Below are positions 155-32,252 of a stretch of DNA of 34,715 nt, piece by piece; within the stretch, counting starts at the first letter, position 1, and every line of letters starts with the position of its first letter. The position numbers and the translations under genes are program-made. Below the pieces are notes generated by a model, which worked only from the letters and a program-made list of their open reading frames with translations, had not been told where the DNA came from and did no database searches. This DNA is from Actinomycetes bacterium (GTDB taxonomy: Bacteria > Actinomycetota > Acidimicrobiia > Acidimicrobiales > UBA8190): positions 1 through 34,715 of the forward strand of contig JAJZNB010000294.1 of the NCBI GenBank assembly GCA_021848085.1, given 5' to 3'.

Positions 155-841
155 GTGACCCCCGCCACGGTGCCCGGGGCCGCCTTGCCCGGCACCTACG
201 CCGCGGTGGCCGAAGCGCTGGCCGTGCTGGTGCTGCTGGTCGAGTTCGCCATGCTGCGCGCCCCGCTGTCGCGCTCGCAGGTCCGGCTCTACGCCTTCCA
301 GTCGCTGGCGGTGACCGCCCTGGCCGCCTTCGTCGCCGCCGATCGCCACATCCCCGGGCTGTACGCCATCGCCGGCATCTCGCTGGTGCTGAAGGTGGTG
401 GTCATCCCGGCCATCGTGCTGCGGCTGCTGCGCCAGGCCCGGGTGGAGCTGGTCCCCAGCCACCGGCTCGGCGTGGCCACCATGGTCCTGCTGGCCCTCG
501 TCGCCGCCGGCTTCGGCATCTTCGTCATCGGCTCCATGCCCATCCACTCCCGGTCGCTGCCCGCCCCGGCGCTGGGGCTGGCCACCGCCGCCGTGCTGGT
601 GTCGTTCCTGCTGGTCATCTTGCGGTCGGACGTGGTGTCGCAGGCCATCGGGTTCTTCTCCCTGGAGAACGGGGTGTCGGTGGCCAGCCTGGTGGTGGCG
701 GCCGGGCTGCCGCTCATCGTGGAGGTCGCCTTCTTCTTCGACCTGCTGGTGGCCGTGGTGGTGTTCGGCGTGTTGATGCGGGTCCACCACCAGCGCAGCC
801 GGACCCTGTCCACCACCGCCCTCGACCGGCTGCGGGGCTGA
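155..841 (+). CDS. Hydrogenase-4 component E (HyfE)-like membrane subunit
   Basis: Multi-TM protein; 'LRAPLSRSQVRLYAFQSLAVTALA…GLYAIAGISLVLKVVVIPAIVLRLL' is HyfE-like. The GTG at 155 is preferred over the ORF-track start at 14. Confidence 0.8.
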   Translation: MTPATVPGAALPGTYAAVAEALAVLVLLVEFAMLRAPLSRSQVRLYAFQSLAVTALAAFVAADRHIPGLYAIAGISLVLKVVVIPAIVLRLLRQARVELVPSHRLGVATMVLLALVAAGFGIFVIGSMPIHSRSLPAPALGLATAAVLVSFLLVILRSDVVSQAIGFFSLENGVSVASLVVAAGLPLIVEVAFFFDLLVAVVVFGVLMRVHHQRSRTLSTTALDRLRG

Positions 842-842
842 C

Positions 843-2303
843 GTGGGGTGGGATCTGCTGACCGTGCTGGTGGCGCCGTTCGCCGTGGCCGTCGCCTGCT
901 GGTGGGCGCCGGTGCCGGTGGGGCGGGCGCTGAGCCTCGGCGGCGGGTTGCTCACCTTCGCCCTGGGCGTGGTGCTGGTGCCCTCGGGGCACGCGGTCGC
1001 TCTCGACGGCTGGCTGCGGGTGGACGACCTGTCGGTGGTGTTCCTGGTGGCGGTGGGCTTCCTGTACCTGGTCACCATGGTGTTCACCGTCGGCTACGTC
1101 CACCCGGCAGGGGAGCCCGACGTCGCCGCCCGCTACCAGCGGCGGCTGCTGGCCGGGCTCAACCTGTTCTGCTGGGCCATGGCCGTCGCCCCGCTCATGA
1201 GCAGCCTGGCCCTGCTGTGGGTGGCCATCGAGGTGACCACCGTCGTCTCAGCCTTGCTGGTGGCCATCGACGACACCGCCGGGGCGACCGAGGCAGCCTG
1301 GAAGTACGTCCTGATCGCCTCGATGGGGCTGGGCATCGCCCTGTTCGCCACCATCACCGTCTACGACGCCGGCAGCACCGTCTTGGGCAACGACTACGAG
1401 CTGTTCATCCCCCAGCTGCTGGCCCACGCCTCGCACTTCCCGGCCCAGATGGTGCGCCTGTCGTTCGTGCTGGCCGTGCTGGGCTTCGGCACCAAGGTCG
1501 GGCTGTTCCCGGTGCACACCTGGCTGCCCGACGCCCACTCCGAGGCGCCCACCCCGGTGTCAGCCCTGCTGTCGGGAGCGCTGCTGGCCCTGAGCTTCTA
1601 CGCCGTGCTGCGCTACTTCCAGATCGCCGTGCGTGCCGTCGGCGGCACCTTCCCCCGCGACGTGCTGCTGGCCTTCGGGCTCGCCTCGTTGGCGCTGGCC
1701 GCCCTCGCCGTGTCGGCCCAGCGCGACCTGAAGCGTCTGCTGGCCTACTCGAGCGTGGAGCACATGGGCATCTTGGCCATCGGGATGAGCTTCGCCGCCC
1801 CCATCGCCGTCGTCGGCGTGCTGCTGCAGGTCCTCGCCCACGCCGCGGCCAAGGGCACCGCCTTCTTCGGTGCCGGCAGCGTCGCCCGCAAGTTCGGCAC
1901 CAAGGACATGGCCCGGATCCGAGGCGGCATCCGGGCCCTGCCCTGGAGCGGGCCGATGCTGGTGCTGGCTGTCCTCGCCCTGTCCGCCCTGCCGCCGTTC
2001 GGGATCTTCCGCAGCGAGTTCCTCATCGTCGAAGGCGGCCTGTCCGACCCGCACCAGGCGACGGTGGCCGTGCTGGTGGTGCTGGTGCTGCTGGCCTTCG
2101 CCGGCCTGTCGTGGTTCTCGACCCGCACCATGCTGAGCCCCGCCGCCGGCTCTGCCTCCCTGCCCGCCGGCGAGCCGAGCCTGTGGATCGTGGCGGCCAT
2201 GGTCGTCGGCCTGGTGGCGCTGGCCGTGCTGGGGGTGCACCCCCCGGGCCAGCTCTCCGACCTGCTGCGCCGGGCCGCCGCCGAGCTGGGGGTGCCGCGA
2301 TGA
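843..2303 (+). CDS. Hydrogenase-4 component F (HyfF)-like proton-translocating (Mrp/NuoL-type) subunit
   Basis: Proton_antipo_M family motifs 'GFGTKVGLFPVHTWLPDAHSEAPTPVSALLSG' and 'HAAAKGTAFFGAG'. Confidence 0.88.
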   Translation: MGWDLLTVLVAPFAVAVACWWAPVPVGRALSLGGGLLTFALGVVLVPSGHAVALDGWLRVDDLSVVFLVAVGFLYLVTMVFTVGYVHPAGEPDVAARYQRRLLAGLNLFCWAMAVAPLMSSLALLWVAIEVTTVVSALLVAIDDTAGATEAAWKYVLIASMGLGIALFATITVYDAGSTVLGNDYELFIPQLLAHASHFPAQMVRLSFVLAVLGFGTKVGLFPVHTWLPDAHSEAPTPVSALLSGALLALSFYAVLRYFQIAVRAVGGTFPRDVLLAFGLASLALAALAVSAQRDLKRLLAYSSVEHMGILAIGMSFAAPIAVVGVLLQVLAHAAAKGTAFFGAGSVARKFGTKDMARIRGGIRALPWSGPMLVLAVLALSALPPFGIFRSEFLIVEGGLSDPHQATVAVLVVLVLLAFAGLSWFSTRTMLSPAAGSASLPAGEPSLWIVAAMVVGLVALAVLGVHPPGQLSDLLRRAAAELGVPR

Positions 2304-3823
2304 CCGGCCCTCCCGACCGCCGAGCCGGCGGACCCGTCACCGTGATCCCAGCCGAGGTGGACACCCTGCCCGAGGCGGTGGGGCGTCAGCTGGCCGACGG
2401 CGCCCGCTTCTTGGCCCTGGTGGCCAGGGCGGACCCGGGAGGCTCCACCACGTTGCAGGTGCTGGTCGGCCGGTCCAAGCAGGTCGTCATCGTGCAGAGC
2501 CGCCTGAGGCCCCAGCAGCGCCGCTTCCCGACGCTGACGACGCTGACGCCCGCCGCCGCCTGGTACGAGCGCGAGGTCCACGACCTGTTCGGCCTGGTGC
2601 CCGAGGGCCATCACCGGCTCCAACCGCTGGTGCTGCCCCGCGCCGCTGCGGTGGCCGCCCCCAGGCCCGGGGCCGGTGGCGGCCCGAACCGGCTGGTGCC
2701 CGACACCACCCCCCCGTCACCCGATGTGGTGGGGGAGGGGCTGTTCACCATCCCCTACGGCCCGGTGCGCTCGGGGATCTTCGAGACGGTGGAGTACCTG
2801 GTGGAGACCTACGGCGAGGACATCCCGGCGGTGCGCCCCCGGGTCCACTACAAGCACCGCGGCCTCGACTGGCGCTTCACCGATCTCGACGCCGACGACG
2901 CCGTGCTGCTGGCCGAGCGGGTGGAGGGGGTTGCCTCGGTGGCTCACGCCAGCGCCTTCTGCCAGGCGCTCGAAGCACTGGCCGACGTCGAGGTGCCGCG
3001 CCCGGCGCAGCTGCTGCGGGTGGTGCACGCCGAGCTCGAGCGGATCGCCAACCACCTCGACTCGATGCTCCGCCACTGCGAAGGGGCGGGCCAGGCCGTC
3101 GCCTACGCCCGTCTCGGCACCCACAAGGAGCAGGTGCAGCGGCTGCGGGCGGCGTTGTGTGGGCACCGCTTCGGCCGTGGCGTGGTCGTCCCCGGCGGGG
3201 TGAGCGGCCCGCCGGGCTGCCCGCTCGACGACGCCATGGCGGCGGTGTCGGCCCTGGAGCGGGCGCTGCGGGCCGACGTGGAGCTGCTGATGGCCACCCC
3301 CTCGTTCCTCGACCGGCTGCGCGGCACCGGACGCCTCGATGCCGAGCTGGCCACCAGCTACGGGGCGCTGGGGCCGGTGGGTCGCGGCTCGGAGGCGGGT
3401 CCCGACGTCCGCCTGGAGCGGCCCTACGGTGGCTACCGGGCGCTGGGCTTCGAGACCGTCCGCGTCGACGCCGGCGACGCCCTGGGGCGCCAGCAGGTCC
3501 GGGTGGAGGAGATCCGCCAGGGCTTCCACCTGGTCCACCAGGCCCTCGACGAGCTCGACGAGGACGACCCGGTCGCCGATGGCCGCTGGCGGGTGCCGGT
3601 CGCCAGCGCCGACGGGCTGACGGTGGGTTCGGTGGAGGCGCCCCAGGGGGAGCTGCTCTACCTGGTCGAGGTGGCTGGCGGCCGCCTGGTCCGGGTGAAG
3701 CCCCGATGCCCCTCCTTTCACAACCTGGCCCTGTTCCCGGCGGCGTTCCGCGGTGACATCCTCACCGACTTCGTGTTCATCGAGGCCAGCTTCGGCCTGT
3801 CGTTCGCCGGGGTGGCCGGCTGA
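2300..3823 (+). CDS. Fused NuoC/NuoD-like hydrogenase large subunit (HyfG-like, Ehr type), NiFe-site cysteines absent
   Basis: N-terminal NuoC-like 'WYEREVHDLFGLVPEGH'; C-terminal NuoD/HycE-like 'GPVRSGIFETVEYLVETYGEDIPAVRPRVHYKHRGLDW', 'HAELERIANHLDSM', 'EAPQGELLYLVEV'. Start overlaps the hyfF stop (ATGA). Confidence 0.88.
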   Translation: MTGPPDRRAGGPVTVIPAEVDTLPEAVGRQLADGARFLALVARADPGGSTTLQVLVGRSKQVVIVQSRLRPQQRRFPTLTTLTPAAAWYEREVHDLFGLVPEGHHRLQPLVLPRAAAVAAPRPGAGGGPNRLVPDTTPPSPDVVGEGLFTIPYGPVRSGIFETVEYLVETYGEDIPAVRPRVHYKHRGLDWRFTDLDADDAVLLAERVEGVASVAHASAFCQALEALADVEVPRPAQLLRVVHAELERIANHLDSMLRHCEGAGQAVAYARLGTHKEQVQRLRAALCGHRFGRGVVVPGGVSGPPGCPLDDAMAAVSALERALRADVELLMATPSFLDRLRGTGRLDAELATSYGALGPVGRGSEAGPDVRLERPYGGYRALGFETVRVDAGDALGRQQVRVEEIRQGFHLVHQALDELDEDDPVADGRWRVPVASADGLTVGSVEAPQGELLYLVEVAGGRLVRVKPRCPSFHNLALFPAAFRGDILTDFVFIEASFGLSFAGVAG

Positions 3824-4620
3824 TGCCGTGGGTCACCCGGGGGCTGCGCAACGGCATCGTCACCACCGGCTACCCGTTGCGCCCCGACGGCTACGGAGAC
3901 CGGTACCACGCCGCGGTGCGGGTGCTGCCCGGCCCTCCACCCGACGCCGGCCAGGCGGCTGCCATGGCGGCCAGCTGCCCCACCGGAGCCGTCACCGCCG
4001 ACGGCGGCACCATCCGCCTCGACCGGGGCCGGTGCATCCTCTGCGGGCGATGCGTGGAGCGCCACCCCCAGCGCTTCGCCTTCGACCCGGCGCCCGAGGT
4101 GTCGGCCCTCACCCGCCGGGCGCTCGTGGTGGACGCCGCCGGCCCCGACGACGACCAGGCCGTCGCCGACGCCCGGGCTGCCCTGCGGCGACGGGTCCGC
4201 GCCCTGCGCCGCTCGCTCCACATCCGCCACGTCGATGCCGGCTCCGACGGCAGCGAGGAGTGGGAGGTGGCGGCCTTGCTGAACCCGGTCTACGACGTGC
4301 AGCGGCTCGGGGTGTTCTTCACCGCCAGCCCCCGCCATGCCGATCTGCTGCTGGTCACCGGCGTCGCCACCACCGCCATGGCCGGCGCGCTGCGGCGCAC
4401 CTGGGAGGCCATGCCCGACCCGAAGCTGGTGCTGGCCGCCGGCACCGACGCGGCCAGCGGCGGGCTGGTGCACCCCACCTACGCCACCGAAGGCGGGGTC
4501 GCCGCCGTGCTGCCGGTTGACGTGTGGGTGCCGGGCTCCCCGCCCAGCCCCTTCGCCCTGCTGCACGGCATCTTGAGCGTCCTCGACCGGCTGGCGCCGG
4601 GCGGAGGCCAGACCCGGTGA
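3823..4620 (+). CDS. Ferredoxin-like + NuoB/HyfI-like small subunit fusion, proximal-cluster cysteines absent
   Basis: N-terminal 'ASCPTGAV…RCILCGRCVERHP' (one 4Fe-4S set); C-terminal NuoB-like 'FTASPRHADLLLVTG…MPDPKLVLAAGTDAASGG…VLPVDVWVPGSPPSPFALLHGIL'. Confidence 0.85.
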   Translation: MPWVTRGLRNGIVTTGYPLRPDGYGDRYHAAVRVLPGPPPDAGQAAAMAASCPTGAVTADGGTIRLDRGRCILCGRCVERHPQRFAFDPAPEVSALTRRALVVDAAGPDDDQAVADARAALRRRVRALRRSLHIRHVDAGSDGSEEWEVAALLNPVYDVQRLGVFFTASPRHADLLLVTGVATTAMAGALRRTWEAMPDPKLVLAAGTDAASGGLVHPTYATEGGVAAVLPVDVWVPGSPPSPFALLHGILSVLDRLAPGGGQTR

Positions 4621-6704
4621 CCGGCCTGCTGGTGGTGCTCGGGCTGGCCGTGTGGGCTGCCGGCGCCGCCGTCGACCTCACCGCCGGAGCCGGCCGAAGC
4701 TGGTCGCGCCTGGCGCCCTACGCCGCCGGTGTGGTCGGCTCGGCGCTGGTCACCGTCGCCGGGGTCCGCACCGTGTTCGCCGCTCCTCGCACCGTCGACC
4801 TCGGAGCCACCTTGGCCGTCGGCTCCACCCTGGTGCGCCTCGACCCGCTGGCCGGGCTGTTTCTCACCCTCACCGCCGGGCTCGGTGTCCTCATCTCCGC
4901 CTGCATGGTGAGCTGGGCCCGGCCCGCCGGGCGGATCGAGGGGCACGGCACCGCGGCGGGCTTCCTGCTGCTGCTGGGGTCGGTGGTGGTGGTGGTGATC
5001 GCCGGGGACGCCTTCACCTTCCTGTTCGGCTGGGAGTCGCTGACGGTGGCGTTCATCGTGCTCAGCGGTGTCGGCCGGCACCGGCAGGCGGCCCAGGCCA
5101 GCTGGGTCACCGGTCTGTTCGGCAAGGCCGGCGGCGCCGCCTTGCTGCTCGGCTTCCTGCTGCTGGCCGGCCACAGCCACAGCCTTCGGTTGGCCGCCTG
5201 GGCGCAGGTGACGCCCGGCGCCCTCCACGACGCCGCCTACGCCCTGGTCGTCGCCGGGTTCGGCGCCAAGGTCGGCCTGGTGCCGTTCGAGGTGTGGCTG
5301 CCGGCCGGCTATCCCGCCGCCCCGGGTCCCACCCGGGCGGCCATGGCCGGCCTGGCCGCCAACGTCGGCTTCTACGGGCTGTGGCGGTTCCTGGCCATCT
5401 TGGGGCGGCCGCCGCAGTGGCTGGTCATCACCGTGCTGGTGCTGGGCGGCGTCACCGCCCTGCTCGGCATCGTCTTCGCCTCCGTGCAGTCACACCTCGA
5501 CCGGGTGGTGGCGTTCTCGTCGGTGGAGAACGCCGGGGTGATCCTGGTCGGCTACGGTGTGGCGCTCACCGGGGCCGCCACCGGCCAGCCGCAGCTGCTC
5601 GCCGTGGGGTTGCTGGCCGCCAGCCTGCAGGTGCTGGCCCATGCCGTGGCCAAGTCGGGGCTGTTCGCCTCAGCCGCCTTCTTCGAGGCCGATCTCGGCA
5701 CCGGCGACCTGGAGGCGTTGCGCGGCGTGGGTCGCCACCATCGGGTCAGCGCCGCGGCCTTCGGCGTCGGGTCGCTGAGCCTGGCCGGGTTGCCGCCCAC
5801 CATCGGGTTCGTGGCGGAGTGGATGATCCTCGAGGCGCTGATGCAGGAGTTCCGCGTCCACCAGCTCGCCCTGCGCCTGGCCTTGGCGTCCGCCGGAGCG
5901 CTGGTGGCGCTGACCGCCGGTGTCGCCGCCTTCACCTTCGCCCGCCTCATCGGGCTGATGCTGCGCGGCCGCGGCCGGGCCGACCCGCCGGCCACCGTGG
6001 TCGACGGCGGTGTCGCCGGCCGCGGCGGGCTGGTGCTGCTGGCCGTGTCGTGCCTGGGTCTGGCCGCGGTGGCGCCCTGGGTGGTGCGCTTCGTGGCCGA
6101 CGGGTTGGCGCCGGCCGTCGCGCCGGCGGCCGTCACCGGCGCCCTCCGCTCGCCGTGGGTGCTGCAGCCGGTGTACCGGGGGTTCTCGATCCTGTCCCCG
6201 TCGTGGCTGTGGGTCACCTTCCCGGTAGGGCTGCTGGCCGTCTTCGCCATGGCCACGGCCCTGTCGGGCGGCCGCCTGCTGCGGGTCAGGCGGGTGCCGG
6301 CCTGGCGGTCGGCCGCCGACCCCGTGGCCGGAGCGGCCAGCTACAGCCCCTTCGGCTACGCCAACGCCATGCGCCACGTGCTGGGCAACGTGCTGGGCAC
6401 CCGCCGGGAGCACGCTCCGCTGGCACCGACGCCGGTGGGTGCCAGGTCCGCCCCCGGGCCGGGGGATGCCGGGTCCGCCCCCGGGCCGGGGGGTGCCGGG
6501 ACGCGGCCGACGTCGGCGCGCCTGGCCGCCCGCACCACCGTGGTGGAACCGGTCACCACCTACCTCTACCGGCCGCTTCGCCGCGCCACGCTTCGGCTGG
6601 TGGCCCTGGTCCGCCGGCTGCAGTCCGGTCGCCTCGATGCCTACATCGGGTACATGCTGGTGGCGCTGGTGGTCGTGCTGGCCATCGTGGCGGGGCTGCG
6701 ATGA
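4617..6704 (+). CDS. HyfB/NuoN-like proton-translocating subunit
   Basis: 'DAFTFLFGWESLTVAFIVLSG', 'GFGAKVGLVPFEVWLPAGYPAAPGP', 'VQSHLDRVVAFSSVENAGVI', 'HAVAKSGLFASAAFF'. GTG start overlaps the upstream stop. Confidence 0.87.
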   Translation: MTGLLVVLGLAVWAAGAAVDLTAGAGRSWSRLAPYAAGVVGSALVTVAGVRTVFAAPRTVDLGATLAVGSTLVRLDPLAGLFLTLTAGLGVLISACMVSWARPAGRIEGHGTAAGFLLLLGSVVVVVIAGDAFTFLFGWESLTVAFIVLSGVGRHRQAAQASWVTGLFGKAGGAALLLGFLLLAGHSHSLRLAAWAQVTPGALHDAAYALVVAGFGAKVGLVPFEVWLPAGYPAAPGPTRAAMAGLAANVGFYGLWRFLAILGRPPQWLVITVLVLGGVTALLGIVFASVQSHLDRVVAFSSVENAGVILVGYGVALTGAATGQPQLLAVGLLAASLQVLAHAVAKSGLFASAAFFEADLGTGDLEALRGVGRHHRVSAAAFGVGSLSLAGLPPTIGFVAEWMILEALMQEFRVHQLALRLALASAGALVALTAGVAAFTFARLIGLMLRGRGRADPPATVVDGGVAGRGGLVLLAVSCLGLAAVAPWVVRFVADGLAPAVAPAAVTGALRSPWVLQPVYRGFSILSPSWLWVTFPVGLLAVFAMATALSGGRLLRVRRVPAWRSAADPVAGAASYSPFGYANAMRHVLGNVLGTRREHAPLAPTPVGARSAPGPGDAGSAPGPGGAGTRPTSARLAARTTVVEPVTTYLYRPLRRATLRLVALVRRLQSGRLDAYIGYMLVALVVVLAIVAGLR
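6440..6500 (+). repeat. 27-bp tandem repeat (about 2.3 copies) inside the HyfB-like gene
   Basis: TGCC(A/G)GGTCCGCCCCCGGGCCGGGGG(A/G), repeated at 6440-6466, 6467-6493 and partly at 6494-6500; encodes SAPGPGDAG-SAPGPGGAG. Confidence 0.85.
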
Positions 6705-7153
6705 GGGGGTCGGGCATGCTCCGACGGGTGCTGGTGGGCTTCGACGGCACCAACGACGCCCGGGCGGCGCTGCGCCTGGCGCTGGCCCTGGCTGCCGACG
6801 CTGGCGGTGGTGAGGTGGTGGCGCTGTCGGTGGTGCCCGACAGCCGGGGTGAGACCGTCGAGGATCGCCGCGGCGCCTTCGACGCCGACGCCGGCCCGCT
6901 GCGCCAGCGGGCCCAGGCCGACATGGCCGCCTGGGGCGATCCGCAGGTGCGGGCCTGGGTCGAGGTGGCCCCCGGGGACCATCCGGCGCGGACCCTGCTG
7001 GCCCAGGCCGAGCGCGGCGGCTTCGACCTGCTGGTCGTCGGCCGTCACGGTGGGGACCGGCTGCTGCACGGCGGGTTGGGCCGGGTCGCCCGGGAGCTGG
7101 TGGAGCATGCCCGCTGCCCGGTGCTGGTGGTGGGGGACCAGGGGTCCTCGTGA
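6701..7153 (+). CDS. Universal stress protein (UspA family)
   Basis: 'RRVLVGFDGTNDARAALRLALALAADAG…FDLLVVGRHGGDRLLHGGLGRVARELVEHARCPVLVV'. ATG overlaps the HyfB stop. Confidence 0.92.
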   Translation: MRGSGMLRRVLVGFDGTNDARAALRLALALAADAGGGEVVALSVVPDSRGETVEDRRGAFDADAGPLRQRAQADMAAWGDPQVRAWVEVAPGDHPARTLLAQAERGGFDLLVVGRHGGDRLLHGGLGRVARELVEHARCPVLVVGDQGSS

Positions 7154-7947
7154 TCGTCGTCGACGGCGCCGTCGACCTGCCCCCGGAGGCGGCCGGCGCC
7201 GCCGACGCCGAGGTACGCTCGGTCTCCGGCGACGTCTACGTCGATGGCCTCCCGTTCCACGGCACACCGCAGCAGTTCTGGAGCAAGGTGCGCCACGGCT
7301 GTCCGGTGGCGACCACCGCCCCCACCGTCAGCCGCCTGCTGCAGGCGTTCGAGGCGAGCCTGCCCGTCGTCGCCGTGCACGTGTCGGGTGCGCTGAGCCA
7401 GACCGTGAGCCGGGCCCGGGAGGCGGCCCAGCGTCTGGCCGGACCGGCCGTCGTCGTCGACAGCGGCTCGCTCAGCGTCGGGGCCGGGCTGGTGGCGACC
7501 GAGGCCCGCCGGCTGCTGGCCGGCCCGGCCACCTTCGCCGCGGCGGCGGCCGCCGTTCCCGGTGTGACCGAACGACTCCACACCTTCGCCGTGGTGGCCG
7601 ACTCCGCCTGGCTGGTGCGCAGCGGACGGGCCGGCATCGTGCCGCGGCACGCCTCCATGCGCCGGCCGATGGTGCTGGCCGTGCGGGGCCGGGCCCTGCT
7701 CCTCGACCAGCCCCGCGACCGGCACCGCGCCGTGGCGCAGCTGGCCGAGCGAGCCCGCCACCATGCGGCTGGGGTCGGGGCGCGCTGGGCGCTGGGGCAC
7801 GGTGACCTGGCCGACGTCGAGGCGCAGGCGGCCGCCCTGGCTGCCTCGTTGGGCGGGCCGCCGGAGTTCCTGGTGGCCATGAACCCCGCCGTCGGCGCCC
7901 ACCTCGGCCCCGACGCGCTGGTGCTGGCCGTGTTGGACGGCGCGTGA
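7150..7947 (+). CDS. DegV family (fatty-acid-binding) protein
   Basis: 'MIVVDGAVDLPPEA', 'PVATTAPTVSRLLQAFE', 'VSGALSQTVSRAREAAQ', 'VVDSGSLSVGAGLVATEA', 'RSGRAG'. GTG overlaps the Usp stop. Confidence 0.88.
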   Translation: MIVVDGAVDLPPEAAGAADAEVRSVSGDVYVDGLPFHGTPQQFWSKVRHGCPVATTAPTVSRLLQAFEASLPVVAVHVSGALSQTVSRAREAAQRLAGPAVVVDSGSLSVGAGLVATEARRLLAGPATFAAAAAAVPGVTERLHTFAVVADSAWLVRSGRAGIVPRHASMRRPMVLAVRGRALLLDQPRDRHRAVAQLAERARHHAAGVGARWALGHGDLADVEAQAAALAASLGGPPEFLVAMNPAVGAHLGPDALVLAVLDGA

Positions 7948-7981: not shown

Positions 7982-8376
7982 TCAGGCCCGCGGCGCTACG
8001 TCGTCGAGGGGCGGGTTGCCGGCGTGGTGGCGCGCCAGCTGCACCGCCTCGATGGTGGTCAGCGCCCCGGGGGCCAGGTCGGCCACCACGCTCAAGAAGG
8101 CCGACACCTTCTCGGCCGCGTCGACGATCTCCACCACCAGCGGCAGGCCGCGGGCCGCGTCGGGGAACCGGCTGGTGTGCAGCACCCCCGACCGGCCATA
8201 GCCCTCGCTGGCCCGCCAGACCGTGGCACCGGCCAGCCCGTCCTCGCGGGCCGCCTCCAGCAGCGCGTCGGCCGCCGAGCGATGGCCGACGCGGTCGTCC
8301 TCGGTCGAGTAGACCTGCAGCCTCCACCTCCGGTCCCAGCGCACCGTCATCGCAAACGGCCTCCTCGCCGGCATCG
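7982..8376 (-). CDS. DUF190 (PII-like) protein
   Basis: 'WRLQVYSTEDDRVGHRSAADALLEAAREDGLAGATVWRASEGYGRSGVLHTSRF…LPLVVEIVDAAEKVSAFL'. Start approximate; the ORF-track extension into the tandem repeat is probably not coding. Confidence 0.75.
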
Positions 8377-8382
8377 CGTCCG

Positions 8383-8472
8383 ACCGGCAGGTCACCGTGG
8401 ACCGGCAGGTCACCGTGGACCGGCAGGTCACCGTGGACCGGCAGGTCACCGTGGACCGGCAGGTCACCGTGG
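8383..8472. repeat. Five perfect tandem copies of an 18-bp unit
   Basis: ACCGGCAGGTCACCGTGG at 8383, 8401, 8419, 8437 and 8455. Confidence 0.97.
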
Positions 8473-8539: not shown

Positions 8540-9967
8540 CTAGGGCTGGCGGTAGCCGGCGGTGGCATGCGGCGCCAGCGAGGCCAGCAGGCCCGACACG
8601 ATGGGGGTGCCGAGCCCGGTCGGCAGGTCGTAACCAGAGCGGGCCGGGAAGCCGGGAGCGCTGGGATAGGGATCGCGGTTGTTGCCGACGGTCACGTCGT
8701 GGAAGTCGGCGTGGTAGCTCGTCGAGTTGGCGGCCAGGGCGTAGAGGGTGGTGTTGAGCAGTCCGAAGCCGTGCCTGGCGCCCTGGGCCAGATCGGCGGT
8801 GATGGCCGCCCAGCTGGGGGCGGACTCGCTGGTGCCGCCGAAGAAGTAGAAGCCGTTGCTCGACCCGCCCAGGAACCCGAGGTAGACGAGGGTCGAGGTG
8901 TACACCGAGGCGTTGAAGGCCACGTCGGACGTGGTGCGCATGGCCTGGCCCGACACCGCCGTCTGGTACGCCGGCGCCGGGAACACGGCGCTGGGGGCGC
9001 CGCCGGTGGCCCCGAACACGCCCAGGGTGCAGCCGAAGGGGCAGGTGGCCGGGTCGCTGTCGTTCCACGCCGTCTCGCCGGCGTAGCTGCCGTTGGTCGA
9101 GGTGGTGTTGTGGGAGGTGTCGGCCCGCACGAACAGGTCGGTGCCGCCGGCCGCCGTCACCTCGGGATCCGACGCCGGGAACAGAGCGTTGGCAGCGGCG
9201 AGCCCGTTGGTGGCTCCGCGATCGCCGGAGGAGGCGAACAGGCTCATGCCCTGCGTCACCGCCTGGTGGAAGATGGCGTCGGCCTGTTGCAGCTGCAGAT
9301 TGTTGCCGCCGCCGGCGATGGCGGCCTCGGGGGCGCCGAAGCTCATCGACAGGACCGTGCCCAGGTGGTGGGTGACGGCATAGTCCTCGGCGACGTTGAT
9401 GGCGTTCCCGTCGGGGGAGGAGGCGACGACCAGGTTGATGCGTGCACCGGGGGCCAGGTCGTGCACGGTCTGCACGTCGAGGCTGGTCTCTTCGGCCCAC
9501 CCGGTCTCCCCGGCGACCTGGCGTGGGTTGTAGGTGGGCTGACCGTCGGGATGGTAGACGTGGAGATCGGCGGGCGGCAGGCCGAAGGCGGCGTCGAAGG
9601 TGGCCAGGTCCGAGGCGACGGTGGGGCTGCCGTAGGCGTCGACGATGGCCACCTGCTCGCCGGTGCCTGCCGCCGCGCCGTCGATGGTCCACGGTACCTG
9701 GTAGGCCTGGTGCAGGATCTGAGGGTCGTAGCAGGCCAGCCCGACCGAGGCGATGCAGGCCCCCGGGGTCAGGCCCGCGGCCGACGTCGACGCCGAGGCT
9801 TGGATGGCGATGGGGCGCACCTGGTAGACGATCGACCCTGTCCCGGCCGAGGCGGCCGCCGCGGCGGAGCTCGAGGCGACGGTGCTGCCCACCAGCGCCG
9901 CCCCGCCAACCAGCGCGGCGGCCGCCGCCGCTGCGCACGTACGCCTCGGACCCCTCCATACCGCCAC
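8540..9967 (-). CDS. Secreted S53 (sedolisin/kumamolisin-like) serine-carboxyl peptidase, short form
   Basis: 'EETSLDVQTVHDLAPGA' (Glu/Asp), 'SSGDRGA' (oxyanion Asp), 'GGTSESAPSWAAI' (catalytic Ser); N-terminal hydrophobic signal; GTG start with GGGAGG upstream. Confidence 0.85.
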   Translation of the reverse strand: MAVWRGPRRTCAAAAAAALVGGAALVGSTVASSSAAAAASAGTGSIVYQVRPIAIQASASTSAAGLTPGACIASVGLACYDPQILHQAYQVPWTIDGAAAGTGEQVAIVDAYGSPTVASDLATFDAAFGLPPADLHVYHPDGQPTYNPRQVAGETGWAEETSLDVQTVHDLAPGARINLVVASSPDGNAINVAEDYAVTHHLGTVLSMSFGAPEAAIAGGGNNLQLQQADAIFHQAVTQGMSLFASSGDRGATNGLAAANALFPASDPEVTAAGGTDLFVRADTSHNTTSTNGSYAGETAWNDSDPATCPFGCTLGVFGATGGAPSAVFPAPAYQTAVSGQAMRTTSDVAFNASVYTSTLVYLGFLGGSSNGFYFFGGTSESAPSWAAITADLAQGARHGFGLLNTTLYALAANSTSYHADFHDVTVGNNRDPYPSAPGFPARSGYDLPTGLGTPIVSGLLASLAPHATAGYRQP

Positions 9968-10465
9968 GGTTCCCTCCCCGGCCCCGAGCCGTGCACTGGT
10001 AGCACTGGTACAAGGTGTGGCCCAGCAACGGCTGATCGAGCCGAGGATAGGGGCCGGAACCGCCGACGAGCATCGACGGGCGGACAACCGCGGCCCGCCG
10101 ACGCCGGCCCGGGGTCGGCGCAGATGCCTGGTCGCCGCACTCCGCCATGGTGGGCACGGCGGGCCATCTGGCCCCTGTCGGGCCGCGGCCTGCTGCGCGC
10201 CTCGGCCGGCGAAGCGGCACGGTCCCGCCGACGTCCACCCGCCGGTGCCGGTTGCCGAGGTACAGCGGGTCGTCGAGGAGGCGCCGCGGAAGCGCTGGAT
10301 GGCCTCTCCGACCGTGGGCGTCTCGACGATCGACAGCACCTCGGCGAGATGGGTCTTGCAGCAGCCGGTCATGGAGCGTCTCGACCTGTTCGTGGAGCAG
10401 GGCTGCCAACCGTTCAGGGTTTGGCGTGGCTCTGCCCCCTTGGACTGCGGTCACGGGGTCTTGAG

Positions 10466-29464: not shown

Positions 29465-30847
29465 ATGGCCCATGCCGCCACCTTCCCCTCGGCGCCGGCG
29501 CCGGCGACAGCCCACGCGCCGCACCACCGCGGATCCCACCGCGAGCGGCGCATCCTCCGCAGCGAACGGATCCTCGCCACGCGCGCCGTCGCCGAGTCGC
29601 TGGTGTCGGCGGCAGGGCTGCAGCGCCGCCCGGTGCTCAACCAGGCCGGCGCCGAGATCGGCCACCTGGTCGACGTGGTGGCCCGCTGGTCCGACGGTCA
29701 GACCTATCCTCCGGTGACCGGGCTGGTGGTCCGGGTCGGGCGCCGCCTGGCCTTCGTCGACGCTGCCTCCGTCGACCGCCTCGAGTGGGGCGAGGTCCGC
29801 CTGGCGTCGAGCCGCCTCGACCTGCGCGACTTCGAGCGTCGGCCCGGCGAGGTGATGCTGTGTCGCGACGTGCTCGACCACCAGCTGGTCGACACCGACG
29901 GGGTGCAGGTGATCCGGGCGGCCGACCTGTACCTGGCCCAGGTGCTGGGGCGGATCCGGCTGGTCGGTGTCGACGTCAGCCTCCACTCGCTGTGGCGCCG
30001 GCTCGGCCCGGCCCGCTGGCGGCGGCGGCCGACCCCCGAGCGGGTGATCGACTGGTCGGCCATCCAGCCCTTCGGCGAGTCGGGGCGCCAGCCGTCGGAG
30101 GTGCGGCTGCGGACCTCCAACGACGGGCTGCACCGGTTGCGGCCCGGCGAGCTGGCCGACCTCCTCGAGGACCTCGAGCGGCCCGCCCGCGCCGAGCTGC
30201 TCGACGTCCTCGACCCGGCCGAGGCCGCCGACGCCCTCGAGGAGATGGACCCCGAGGAGGTCCGCACCCTGCTGCGCGAGGTCGATCCCGGCCGGGCGGC
30301 CGCCCTGGTGGAGCAGATGGAGCCCGACGAAGCTGTCGACGCGCTGCGCGACCTGGACCGCGACGACCGCGACGACCTGCTCACCCGGATGACGTCGGCG
30401 GCCGCCGAGCGCCTCAGCGTCCTGCTCGACTACCCCGAGGACCGGGCCGGCGGCATCATGACCACGCTGCTGGTGGTGGCCACGACCGACGACACCGTCG
30501 ACGACGTGCGCCGCCGCCTGGGGGAGCTGGCGGAGCACCGCCACGACGTCGACGCCGTGGCCGTGGTGGACGCCAACGGACGCCTCGTGTGGGACCTGCC
30601 GCTGTTCGACGTGGCCCTGGCCGCAGGGTCGGCGCGCCTGGGCCAGCTCGTCGAGCACGAGGAGACCGTGACCGTTCCCCCCGGCGCCGGCCTGGCCGAC
30701 GTGGCCGCCCGCTTCGTCGAGGCCCGCCGGCTGTCGCTGCTCGTCGTCGACGACGGCCGACCGGTCGGCAGGATCCTCGCCGACGACGTCGTCGACGCCC
30801 TGCTGCCGGTGCGCGGCCGGGCCCGCTTCCCGCGGCTGCTGCAGTGA
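29465..30847 (+). CDS. MgtE N-terminal domain + CBS protein (PRC-barrel-like N-terminus), no MgtE TM domain
   Basis: 'LADLLEDLERPARAELLDVLDPAEAADALEEMDPEEVRTLLREVDPGRAAALVEQMEPDEAVDALRDL…LLDYPEDRAGGIMTT' followed by CBS-like segments; no hydrophobic C-terminal domain. Confidence 0.85.
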   Translation: MAHAATFPSAPAPATAHAPHHRGSHRERRILRSERILATRAVAESLVSAAGLQRRPVLNQAGAEIGHLVDVVARWSDGQTYPPVTGLVVRVGRRLAFVDAASVDRLEWGEVRLASSRLDLRDFERRPGEVMLCRDVLDHQLVDTDGVQVIRAADLYLAQVLGRIRLVGVDVSLHSLWRRLGPARWRRRPTPERVIDWSAIQPFGESGRQPSEVRLRTSNDGLHRLRPGELADLLEDLERPARAELLDVLDPAEAADALEEMDPEEVRTLLREVDPGRAAALVEQMEPDEAVDALRDLDRDDRDDLLTRMTSAAAERLSVLLDYPEDRAGGIMTTLLVVATTDDTVDDVRRRLGELAEHRHDVDAVAVVDANGRLVWDLPLFDVALAAGSARLGQLVEHEETVTVPPGAGLADVAARFVEARRLSLLVVDDGRPVGRILADDVVDALLPVRGRARFPRLLQ

Positions 30848-30860
30848 CGCGGCTGGTGCC

Positions 30861-32252
30861 ATGAGCCCCCCCACCACCGAGTCCGAGGGCACCGACCCGG
30901 TCCCGGCCGGCGGGCGACGGGGCTCCGGCCCGTCCCCCGCCGTTCCCGGAGCGTCGCCCGCCGCTCCCAGTGCAGCGCCGGCAGGCCTCGCCGCCGGCGC
31001 CTCCCCTTCTGGCGGCCGGTCCCGGCGGCGTCGGCTGTTCGTCTACCTGGCTGCCATCGGACCGGGGCTGATCGCCGCCAGCGCCGGCAACGACGCTGGC
31101 GGGGTCCTCACCTACGCCTCGGCCGGGGCACAGTTCGCCTACCGCACCTTGTTCTTCATGGCCGTCGTCACCGTCTTCTACGTGGCGGTGCAGGAGATGG
31201 TGGCCCGACTCGCCGCCCACACCGGCAAGGGGCTGGCGGCCCTCATCCGCGAGGAGTTCTCCCTGCGGTGGACGGCGTTCGCCATGGTGTGCTTCGCCAT
31301 CGCCAACGTCGGTCTGGTGGTGACCGAGTTCGCCGGCATCGCCTCCGCCTTCGGGCTGTGGGGCGTGTCGCGGTACGTGTCGGTGCCGATCGCCGCCGCC
31401 GCCATCTGGGTGCTGGTGCTGTTCGGCTCGTACCGCTACGCCGAGCGGGTGTTCCTGCTGCTGTCGTTGGGGTTCCTCGCCTACCCGCTGGCGATGCTCT
31501 TCGGCCATCCGGCCTGGCGGACGGCCGGCGCCGACCTGGTGTTCCCCCACTTCCTCGGCACCAGGGGGTTCGTGCTGTTGGGGGTGGCTCTGGTCGGCAC
31601 CACCATCACCCCCTACATCCAGCTGTACGAAGCCGGGGCGGTGGTCGACCGGGGGGTCGGCCCCGAGGAGTACCGCCTCACCCGCTTCGACGCCATCAGC
31701 GGCGCCGTCGTCTCCGACGTCATCTCGGTCTGCATCATCATCGCCACCGCCGCGGCCATCGGCGGCACCGGGCCGCTGCAGTCGGCGGCTCAGGCGGCCC
31801 GCTCTCTGCGGCCGGTGGCCGGGGCCGGCGCCGAGACGCTGTTCGGCCTCGGGCTGCTCGGGGCCTCGGCGCTGGCGGCGGCGGTGGTGCCGCTGTCGAC
31901 GTCGTACGCCCTGGCGGAAGCCATCGGGGTGGAGCGGTCGGTGTCGCGCAGCTTCCGCCAGGCGCCGCTGTTCCTCGGTCTGTTCAGCCTGCAGATCGCC
32001 ATCGGCGCCTTCGTGGTGCTGGTCCCGGGCAACCTGATCCACCTCATCGTCAACGTGCAGGTCCTCGAAGGTCTGATCACCCCGTTCACCTTGGGCTTCG
32101 TGCTGATCCTGGCCAACCGCCGCAGCCTGCTGGGCCCGGCGGCCAACGGCGTGCTGGGGCGGGTCGTCGGCACCGTCTCGCTGGTCGCCGTCGGCGGCTT
32201 CTCGCTGGTGCTGGTGGTGCTGAGCGTCAGATCGTGGTTCGGTCTGGGCTGA
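30861..32252 (+). CDS. NRAMP-family divalent metal transporter with non-canonical metal-site motifs
   Basis: 'IGPGLIAASAGNDAGGVLTYASAGAQF' (TM1), 'LVGTTITPYIQLYEAGAVVDRG' (TM6), multiple TM segments. Confidence 0.83.
   Translation: MSPPTTESEGTDPVPAGGRRGSGPSPAVPGASPAAPSAAPAGLAAGASPSGGRSRRRRLFVYLAAIGPGLIAASAGNDAGGVLTYASAGAQFAYRTLFFMAVVTVFYVAVQEMVARLAAHTGKGLAALIREEFSLRWTAFAMVCFAIANVGLVVTEFAGIASAFGLWGVSRYVSVPIAAAAIWVLVLFGSYRYAERVFLLLSLGFLAYPLAMLFGHPAWRTAGADLVFPHFLGTRGFVLLGVALVGTTITPYIQLYEAGAVVDRGVGPEEYRLTRFDAISGAVVSDVISVCIIIATAAAIGGTGPLQSAAQAARSLRPVAGAGAETLFGLGLLGASALAAAVVPLSTSYALAEAIGVERSVSRSFRQAPLFLGLFSLQIAIGAFVVLVPGNLIHLIVNVQVLEGLITPFTLGFVLILANRRSLLGPAANGVLGRVVGTVSLVAVGGFSLVLVVLSVRSWFGLG

Follow-up and report, generated by a model that had tools for sequence, protein, structure and literature searches.

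What does a membrane complex built like a group 4 hydrogenase do once its metal site has gone? The question is raised by a contig of 34,715 nucleotides (JAJZNB010000294.1, GenBank assembly GCA_021848085.1; the whole stretch is referred to as the window) from an actinobacterium of the order Acidimicrobiales, in which a preliminary description had recognized an energy-converting hydrogenase-related (Ehr) complex, i.e. a relative of group 4 hydrogenases and complex I devoid of the nickel-iron (NiFe) site, with an unresolved redox substrate. The cassette of this complex is indeed present at positions 155-6704. We identify it as a fluoride-regulated variant of the Ehr kind that has in addition lost the proximal, N2-type iron-sulfur cluster; the initial observation is confirmed and its interpretation is supported in part. 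We propose, with a probability of roughly 0.6, that fluoride induces this complex, a largely or wholly non-redox derivative of a group 4 hydrogenase/complex I ancestor, and that it translocates ions in the service of H+/F- homeostasis. It probably transports ions and so aids bacterial survival of fluoride.

The cassette encodes a six-subunit membrane complex of hydrogenase/complex I architecture, with the gene order C-E-F-G-I-B that is intact in most relatives. The last codons of the hyfC/NuoH-like gene (LFLGGA-stop, 1-21, + strand) open the window, and the remainder, with a match to PF00146, is located on the overlapping contig C195 of the same genome (L009 21-1001, minus strand), whose end overlaps the beginning of the window by 41 bases, one of them mismatched; the search for this subunit immediately upstream, as advised in the preliminary description, was hence successful. 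Next on the + strand are the HyfE-like membrane subunit (155-841; NCBIfam hydrogenase 4 membrane subunit E, 3.9e-21), the antiporter-like HyfF subunit (843-2303; PF00361, E 6.6e-48), the NuoC/NuoD-HycE-like large subunit (2300-3823; PF00329, PF00346 and, weakly, PF00374), the small subunit, in which a ferredoxin domain is fused to a NuoB/HycG-like domain (3823-4620; PF01058, E 2.1e-19, and Fer4_15), and the antiporter-like HyfB subunit (4617-6704; PF00361 and NCBIfam hydrogenase 4 subunit B). Neither an electron-donor subunit nor the NADH module (NuoE/F/G) is found among the cassette genes, and HycB and formate dehydrogenase are likewise missing from the cassette.

Cofactor sites of the peripheral subunits

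Relatives were collected by scanning one genome per species, which returned 350 contig stretches, the best 80 of which were kept. The search patterns (RS..RHVD and RLG..FFTAS) exclude the N2 positions, and the similarity ranking used N2-less queries and therefore favours N2-less members. All 80 are from Actinomycetota, including Streptomyces, Streptantibioticus, Amycolatopsis, Gordonia, Actinacidiphila and Actinocatenispora.

In the large subunit, both NiFe-ligand pairs are gone, and the two motifs quoted earlier proved exact. Alignment to HycE of the E. coli formate hydrogenlyase (7z0s_E) pairs RVCGIC of the L1 motif with RVEGVA (within AERVEGVASVAHASAFCQA, 2912-2968, + strand), the first cysteine being replaced by Glu209 and the second by Ala212, and DPCYSC of the L2 motif with FGLSFAG (within FIEASFGLSFAGVAG, 3776-3820, + strand), with Ser501 and Gly504 at the cysteine positions. 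The protein stops three residues past the L2 site, and therefore no cleavable C-terminal extension is left. CxxC pairs are absent from the rest of its sequence as well, and the CxxC motifs of L1 and L2 that define group 4 [NiFe] hydrogenases are lacking in the window and its 80 relatives alike. Since 80 homologues show the same loss at both sites, a sequencing error is not its cause. Glutamate occupies the position of the first L1 cysteine in 80 out of 80 large subunits, and E209 is among 56 invariant columns, many of them charged. In line with the loss of the metal site, which the preliminary description had expected to be accompanied by missing hyp maturation genes, no HypD was found in the window's genome (G000, 89% complete), nor was any other NiFe hydrogenase.

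The small subunit, which had received no attention in this respect, aligns with HycG (7z0s_G, its best solved match) and MbhJ (6cfw_J), and all four proximal ligands are lost: DCGGCNGCEIE of HycG corresponds to DAGSDGSEEWE, GAC to GTD and PGCPP to PGSPP. Ligands 1 and 2 are now Asp142 and Glu145 (4246-4257), ligand 3 is Asp209 (4447-4449) and ligand 4 is Ser239 (4537-4539). The replacements are strict, with Asp in 82/82, Glu or Asp in 78/82, Asp or Glu in 82/82 and Ser in 75/82 small subunits. The ferredoxin domain (3976-4053) retains C52, C71, C74 and C77 as its only cysteines, i.e. one [4Fe-4S] site, that of the second-motif cluster; by the usual 2[4Fe-4S] pattern these four bind a single cluster. 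They are kept in 81 of the 82 proteins. The exception is L052 (9954-10550), from which the ferredoxin domain has disappeared, leaving a small subunit with zero cysteines and the rest kept. AlphaFold models retain the HycE and HycG/MbhJ folds with modest confidence, the large subunit matching 7z0s_E with a TM score of 0.80; the inputs comprised just 8-9 sequences and the pLDDT values were 67 and 71, and the models were used for the fold only.

Compared to HycE/F/G, the complex has thus, as read from the alignments, lost the NiFe site, the proximal cluster and one ferredoxin cluster. This pattern is not decay: the replacements at N2 and L1 are constrained across the relatives, and the charges of the membrane ion path are invariant. 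Among the redox-active members of the complex I/group 4 hydrogenase superfamily, N2 or a counterpart of it is the final cluster ahead of the active site. With N2 and one ferredoxin cluster lost, the window complex therefore lacks the electron route on which a redox Ehr complex depends, and we argue that an electron residing on the remaining cluster would be without any known route to the former active site. The fold and the subunits agree with E. coli formate hydrogenlyase-1 and hydrogenase-4 (HycBCDEFG and HyfABCDEFGHI), HycE and HycG being the best matches of solved structure, and so do the ion-path residues of HyfB/C/E/F; in contrast to these enzymes, the window complex lacks the NiFe site, the N2 ligands, HycB/FdhF, HypD and the C-terminal processing peptide, and possesses one ferredoxin cluster and a fluoride riboswitch.

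The complex may still be a redox enzyme, in which electrons enter the remaining [4Fe-4S] cluster, pass via another centre, e.g. a metal at the D/E/D/S positions, and reach a quinone or another acceptor located where the NiFe cavity used to be, powering the pump in the manner of complex I. The near-universal retention of the four ferredoxin cysteines, the preserved fold and the N2 ligands of types B and beta, members of the same clade (see below), speak in favour of such a scheme. We nevertheless regard it as unlikely in view of the complete loss of the N2 ligands with strict acidic replacement, the survival of the remaining complex in L052 without a ferredoxin domain, and the absence of an electron-donor subunit from the cassette.

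The phylogeny bears on the order of these losses. In a tree of 55 large subunits (SH-aLRT support, quick search), the N2-less type A and the types B and beta each form one group (support 100), and together they constitute a single clade (98), apart from Mycobacterium-type Ehr complexes, E. coli HycE/HyfG and complex I. The branch uniting A and B is weaker (80). Type beta, encoded on Burkholderia and Caballeronia plasmids, has lost NiFe and keeps N2 and an eight-cysteine ferredoxin domain, and type B, from actinobacteria, has lost NiFe and one ferredoxin cluster and keeps N2. The tree suggests an order of cofactor loss, the simplest reading, which is not proven, being NiFe, then ferredoxin cluster I, then N2. 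A large actinobacterial family, which includes cultured Streptomyces, Amycolatopsis and Gordonia and a Mycobacterium plasmid, has exchanged N2 for acids and kept the ion path.

The placement in the Ehr class stands as regards the group 4 descent and the lost NiFe site, and falls short in that the loss of the N2 ligands and of one ferredoxin cluster was overlooked. Ehr complexes (Mycobacterium-type and the types of comammox Nitrospira) share the group 4 architecture and the loss of both NiFe CxxC motifs with the window complex, which differs by the exchange of N2 ligands for acids, the fused single-cluster ferredoxin domain, fluoride control and, relative to the Mycobacterium type, a separate branch of the tree.

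Two observations relate to the distribution of N2. At L077, L078 and L082, N2-less and N2-keeping cassettes are located side by side on one contig. An Allomeiothermus silvanus plasmid (L153 8854-9726, L161) harbours two copies of an Ehr-like cassette with an N2-less small subunit (NTGLDD, GNE, PGS); this loss, which lies on a different branch and is not accompanied by a fluoride riboswitch, is possibly independent.

Fluoride control of the operon

The operon belongs to a fluoride regulon, having an aptamer in its 5' leader and linkage to fluoride-resistance genes. At the Rfam gathering score, the fluoride riboswitch RF01734 immediately precedes hyfC in six of the seven cultured actinobacteria scanned and in three beta-proteobacterial plasmids; in M. 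branderi it precedes a NUDIX gene, which is followed by hyfC. A covariance model of our own, built from 13 such RF01734 hits, detected a match at most 400 bases upstream of hyfC, on the same strand, in 60 of the 68 loci in which the start of hyfC is present; 44 of these reach E<=0.01 and 35 reach E<=0.001 (E values for 1.57 Mb). No match better than E 0.17 was obtained with it in 18 control loci. Three type B loci with an intact start (L045, L077 and L082) also display a riboswitch-like match in front.

For the window itself, Rfam reports no riboswitch at the gathering score, neither within it nor on C195. A permissive search and our own model identified a site directly upstream of the window's hyfC (C195:1013-1086; 21.9 bits, E 0.0013 genome-wide), one of only two credible riboswitch sites in this genome, the other preceding crcB-DUF190-crcB on C61 (49.2 bits). 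Read by pattern, the C195 site contains all core aptamer segments at 1022-1110 with a hairpin inserted, around which the automatic alignment had misplaced the 5' half, as judged by manual reading.

The gene neighbourhoods point in the same direction. Clustering of the neighbours at 80 loci, followed by direct search, recovered universal stress protein (USP) genes in 36, DUF190 in 27, CrcB in 17 and enolase in 10, and CrcB, DUF190, enolase or PPase in 32; DUF190 is present in the window. In 19 loci the USP gene directly follows hyfB. The N2-less M. branderi plasmid member has USP, enolase and DUF190 nearby, and the type beta cassette has PPase, DUF190 and CrcB in its vicinity on the two Burkholderia plasmids that are annotated. 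The surroundings of four complex I loci and of several Mycobacterium-type or plasmid Ehr loci yielded no CrcB, DUF190, enolase or PPase; a USP gene occurs near one Variovorax and one Paraburkholderia comparison locus.

The riboswitch and these neighbours, overlooked before, direct the search for a function from an unresolved redox substrate to fluoride stress. They also bear on the proposal of an ordinary Ehr complex with a redox substrate that is not known, as originally put forward. The subunit set and the NiFe loss are alike, and N2-bearing relatives exist; however, N2 is lost here, and the Mycobacterium-type Ehr loci examined have neither fluoride control nor such neighbours, which makes the proposal doubtful, with small odds in its favour. 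The function of Ehr complexes is stated as unknown in the literature (PMC10284858; PMC6728331), and our literature searches found no paper tying them to fluoride. The role of an Ehr complex now becomes testable through gene deletion and fluoride assays.

The crcB motif was reported upstream of genes 'encoding formate hydrogen lyase' in 2010 (Weinberg 2010, PMC2864571), and a review explains formate hydrogenlyase under a fluoride riboswitch as a shift to fermentation (PMC11139923). In these accounts, as here, a hydrogenase-4-like operon comes right after crcB-motif RNA, and the genes concerned very probably represent the same clade. Formate hydrogenlyase is named there as a common fluoride-riboswitch gene, the suggestion being a working enzyme used in a fluoride-triggered shift to fermentation. 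Yet no member of the fluoride clade that we read has NiFe ligands, and hence the fermentation explanation fails for these members. The window's genome further lacks hypD and other NiFe hydrogenases, and its cassette HycB and formate dehydrogenase, which renders this reading extremely improbable. The puzzle posed since 2010 is thereby recast, as the members read cannot be formate hydrogenlyases.

Two plasmids illustrate fluoride-associated arrangements elsewhere. A conjugative plasmid of Burkholderia cenocepacia (L151 2021-17679) carries a fluoride-resistance island with seven RF01734 sites around PPase, DUF190, an N2-keeping cassette, CrcB and a CLC gene. On an Alicyclobacillus plasmid from acid mine drainage (L160 7732-9434), an orphan NiFe-less large subunit lies directly behind a strong fluoride riboswitch and adjoins CrcB and DUF190; the annotation shows no further subunit in the vicinity.

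The membrane arm and a putative mechanism of ion movement

The Glu/Lys residues that form the ion path in antiporter-like PF00361 subunits are in place. E130, K218, K337 and E392 of HyfF are invariant in 70-74 homologues, as are E139, K217, K345 and E400 of HyfB (70-75 homologues for the PF00361 subunits); D108, E150, E216, E222 and E227 of HyfC, as well as E171 and D196 of HyfE in about 69 homologues, are invariant or nearly so. The charges of the membrane ion path are also present in E. coli hydrogenase 4. Respiratory complex I shares homologues of NuoH/K/L/M/N/CD/B and the proton-path residues with the cassette, which differs in lacking the NADH module and N2. HyfB and HyfF belong to the same antiporter family (PF00361) as Mrp antiporters, which, probably like the window complex, function without redox input; unlike these, the complex keeps NuoCD and NuoB peripheral proteins.

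The peripheral arm could then be a mere leftover that keeps the membrane arm together, and the latter could work as an antiporter of the Mrp type or as a valve that relieves acid. Such a role would suit the invariant membrane-arm residues and the dispensable ferredoxin domain of L052. The 56 invariant large-subunit columns, many charged and including E209, and the Alicyclobacillus orphan large subunit, which has its own riboswitch and adjoins CrcB, argue against it, and we consider it improbable.

Instead, for the favoured non-redox complex in H+/F- homeostasis we envisage the following. Fluoride would enter the cell as hydrogen fluoride (HF) and, via the riboswitch, activate the operon, whose six-subunit product would then move ions along the preserved HyfB/HyfF/HyfC/HyfE path, the ion most likely being H+, possibly in exchange for a cation or coupled to F-. 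This movement would offset the acid and fluoride load and maintain the membrane potential needed by the CrcB channels. The conserved carboxylates at the former NiFe cavity and N2 site (E209 of the large and D142, E145 and D209 of the small subunit) may serve as a proton relay, or as a divalent-metal or fluoride site that gates the membrane arm. Na+/H+ antiporters are, after exporters, the next most common class under fluoride riboswitches, the reason given being that HF entry acidifies the cell (PMC11139923). The family may be a case in which nature has uncoupled the ion movement of complex I from its redox chemistry. More speculatively, and with a low likelihood, the complex may constitute a third class of fluoride exporter, derived from complex I, in which the proton gradient expels fluoride and the N2/NiFe path has been rebuilt as a carboxylate, or carboxylate-metal, fluoride/proton site.

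Several points weigh against the non-redox proposal. The [4Fe-4S] site of the ferredoxin domain, kept in all but one of the small subunits, suggests some redox or sensing role and is the chief observation for which the model does not account; it may serve in sensing or be structural. Types B and beta, which branch earlier, keep N2, so that a redox function may be ancestral. Net H+ export that is not driven by a redox reaction would have to draw on some other gradient. Finally, the riboswitch at the window genome's own hyfC scores below the Rfam cut-off of 34 bits. L052, on the other hand, having shed the ferredoxin domain and kept the rest, counts for a non-redox function.

Adjacent genes and further observations

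The + strand run continues beyond the cassette, and several of the gene ends from hyfE to the DegV gene overlap. The USP gene (6701-7153, + strand; PF00582) overlaps the end of hyfB and is itself overlapped by a gene for a DegV-family protein (7150-7947, + strand; PF02645), followed on the opposite strand by the DUF190 gene (7982-8467, minus strand; PF02641, E 3.9e-26), a companion of CrcB fluoride channels. DegV was considered as a lipid-binding link and dropped, as it occurs at only 13 of the 80 loci.

The genome contains a separate, normal complex I on C164. An apparent second cassette copy on C96 (L008, 6630 bases) was rejected; it is 99.77% identical throughout to C34 of another species (G003) and is a probable binning contaminant. 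Further along the window, an open reading frame at 8540-10372 (minus strand), which has no Pfam match, looks by eye like a secreted S53-type acid protease, and at 29465-32252 a gene for an MgtE_N/CBS protein adjoins one for an Nramp-type divalent metal transporter. On C195, near but not adjacent to hyfC, a gene start (L009 3047-3592) resembles by eye the medium subunit of CO dehydrogenase.

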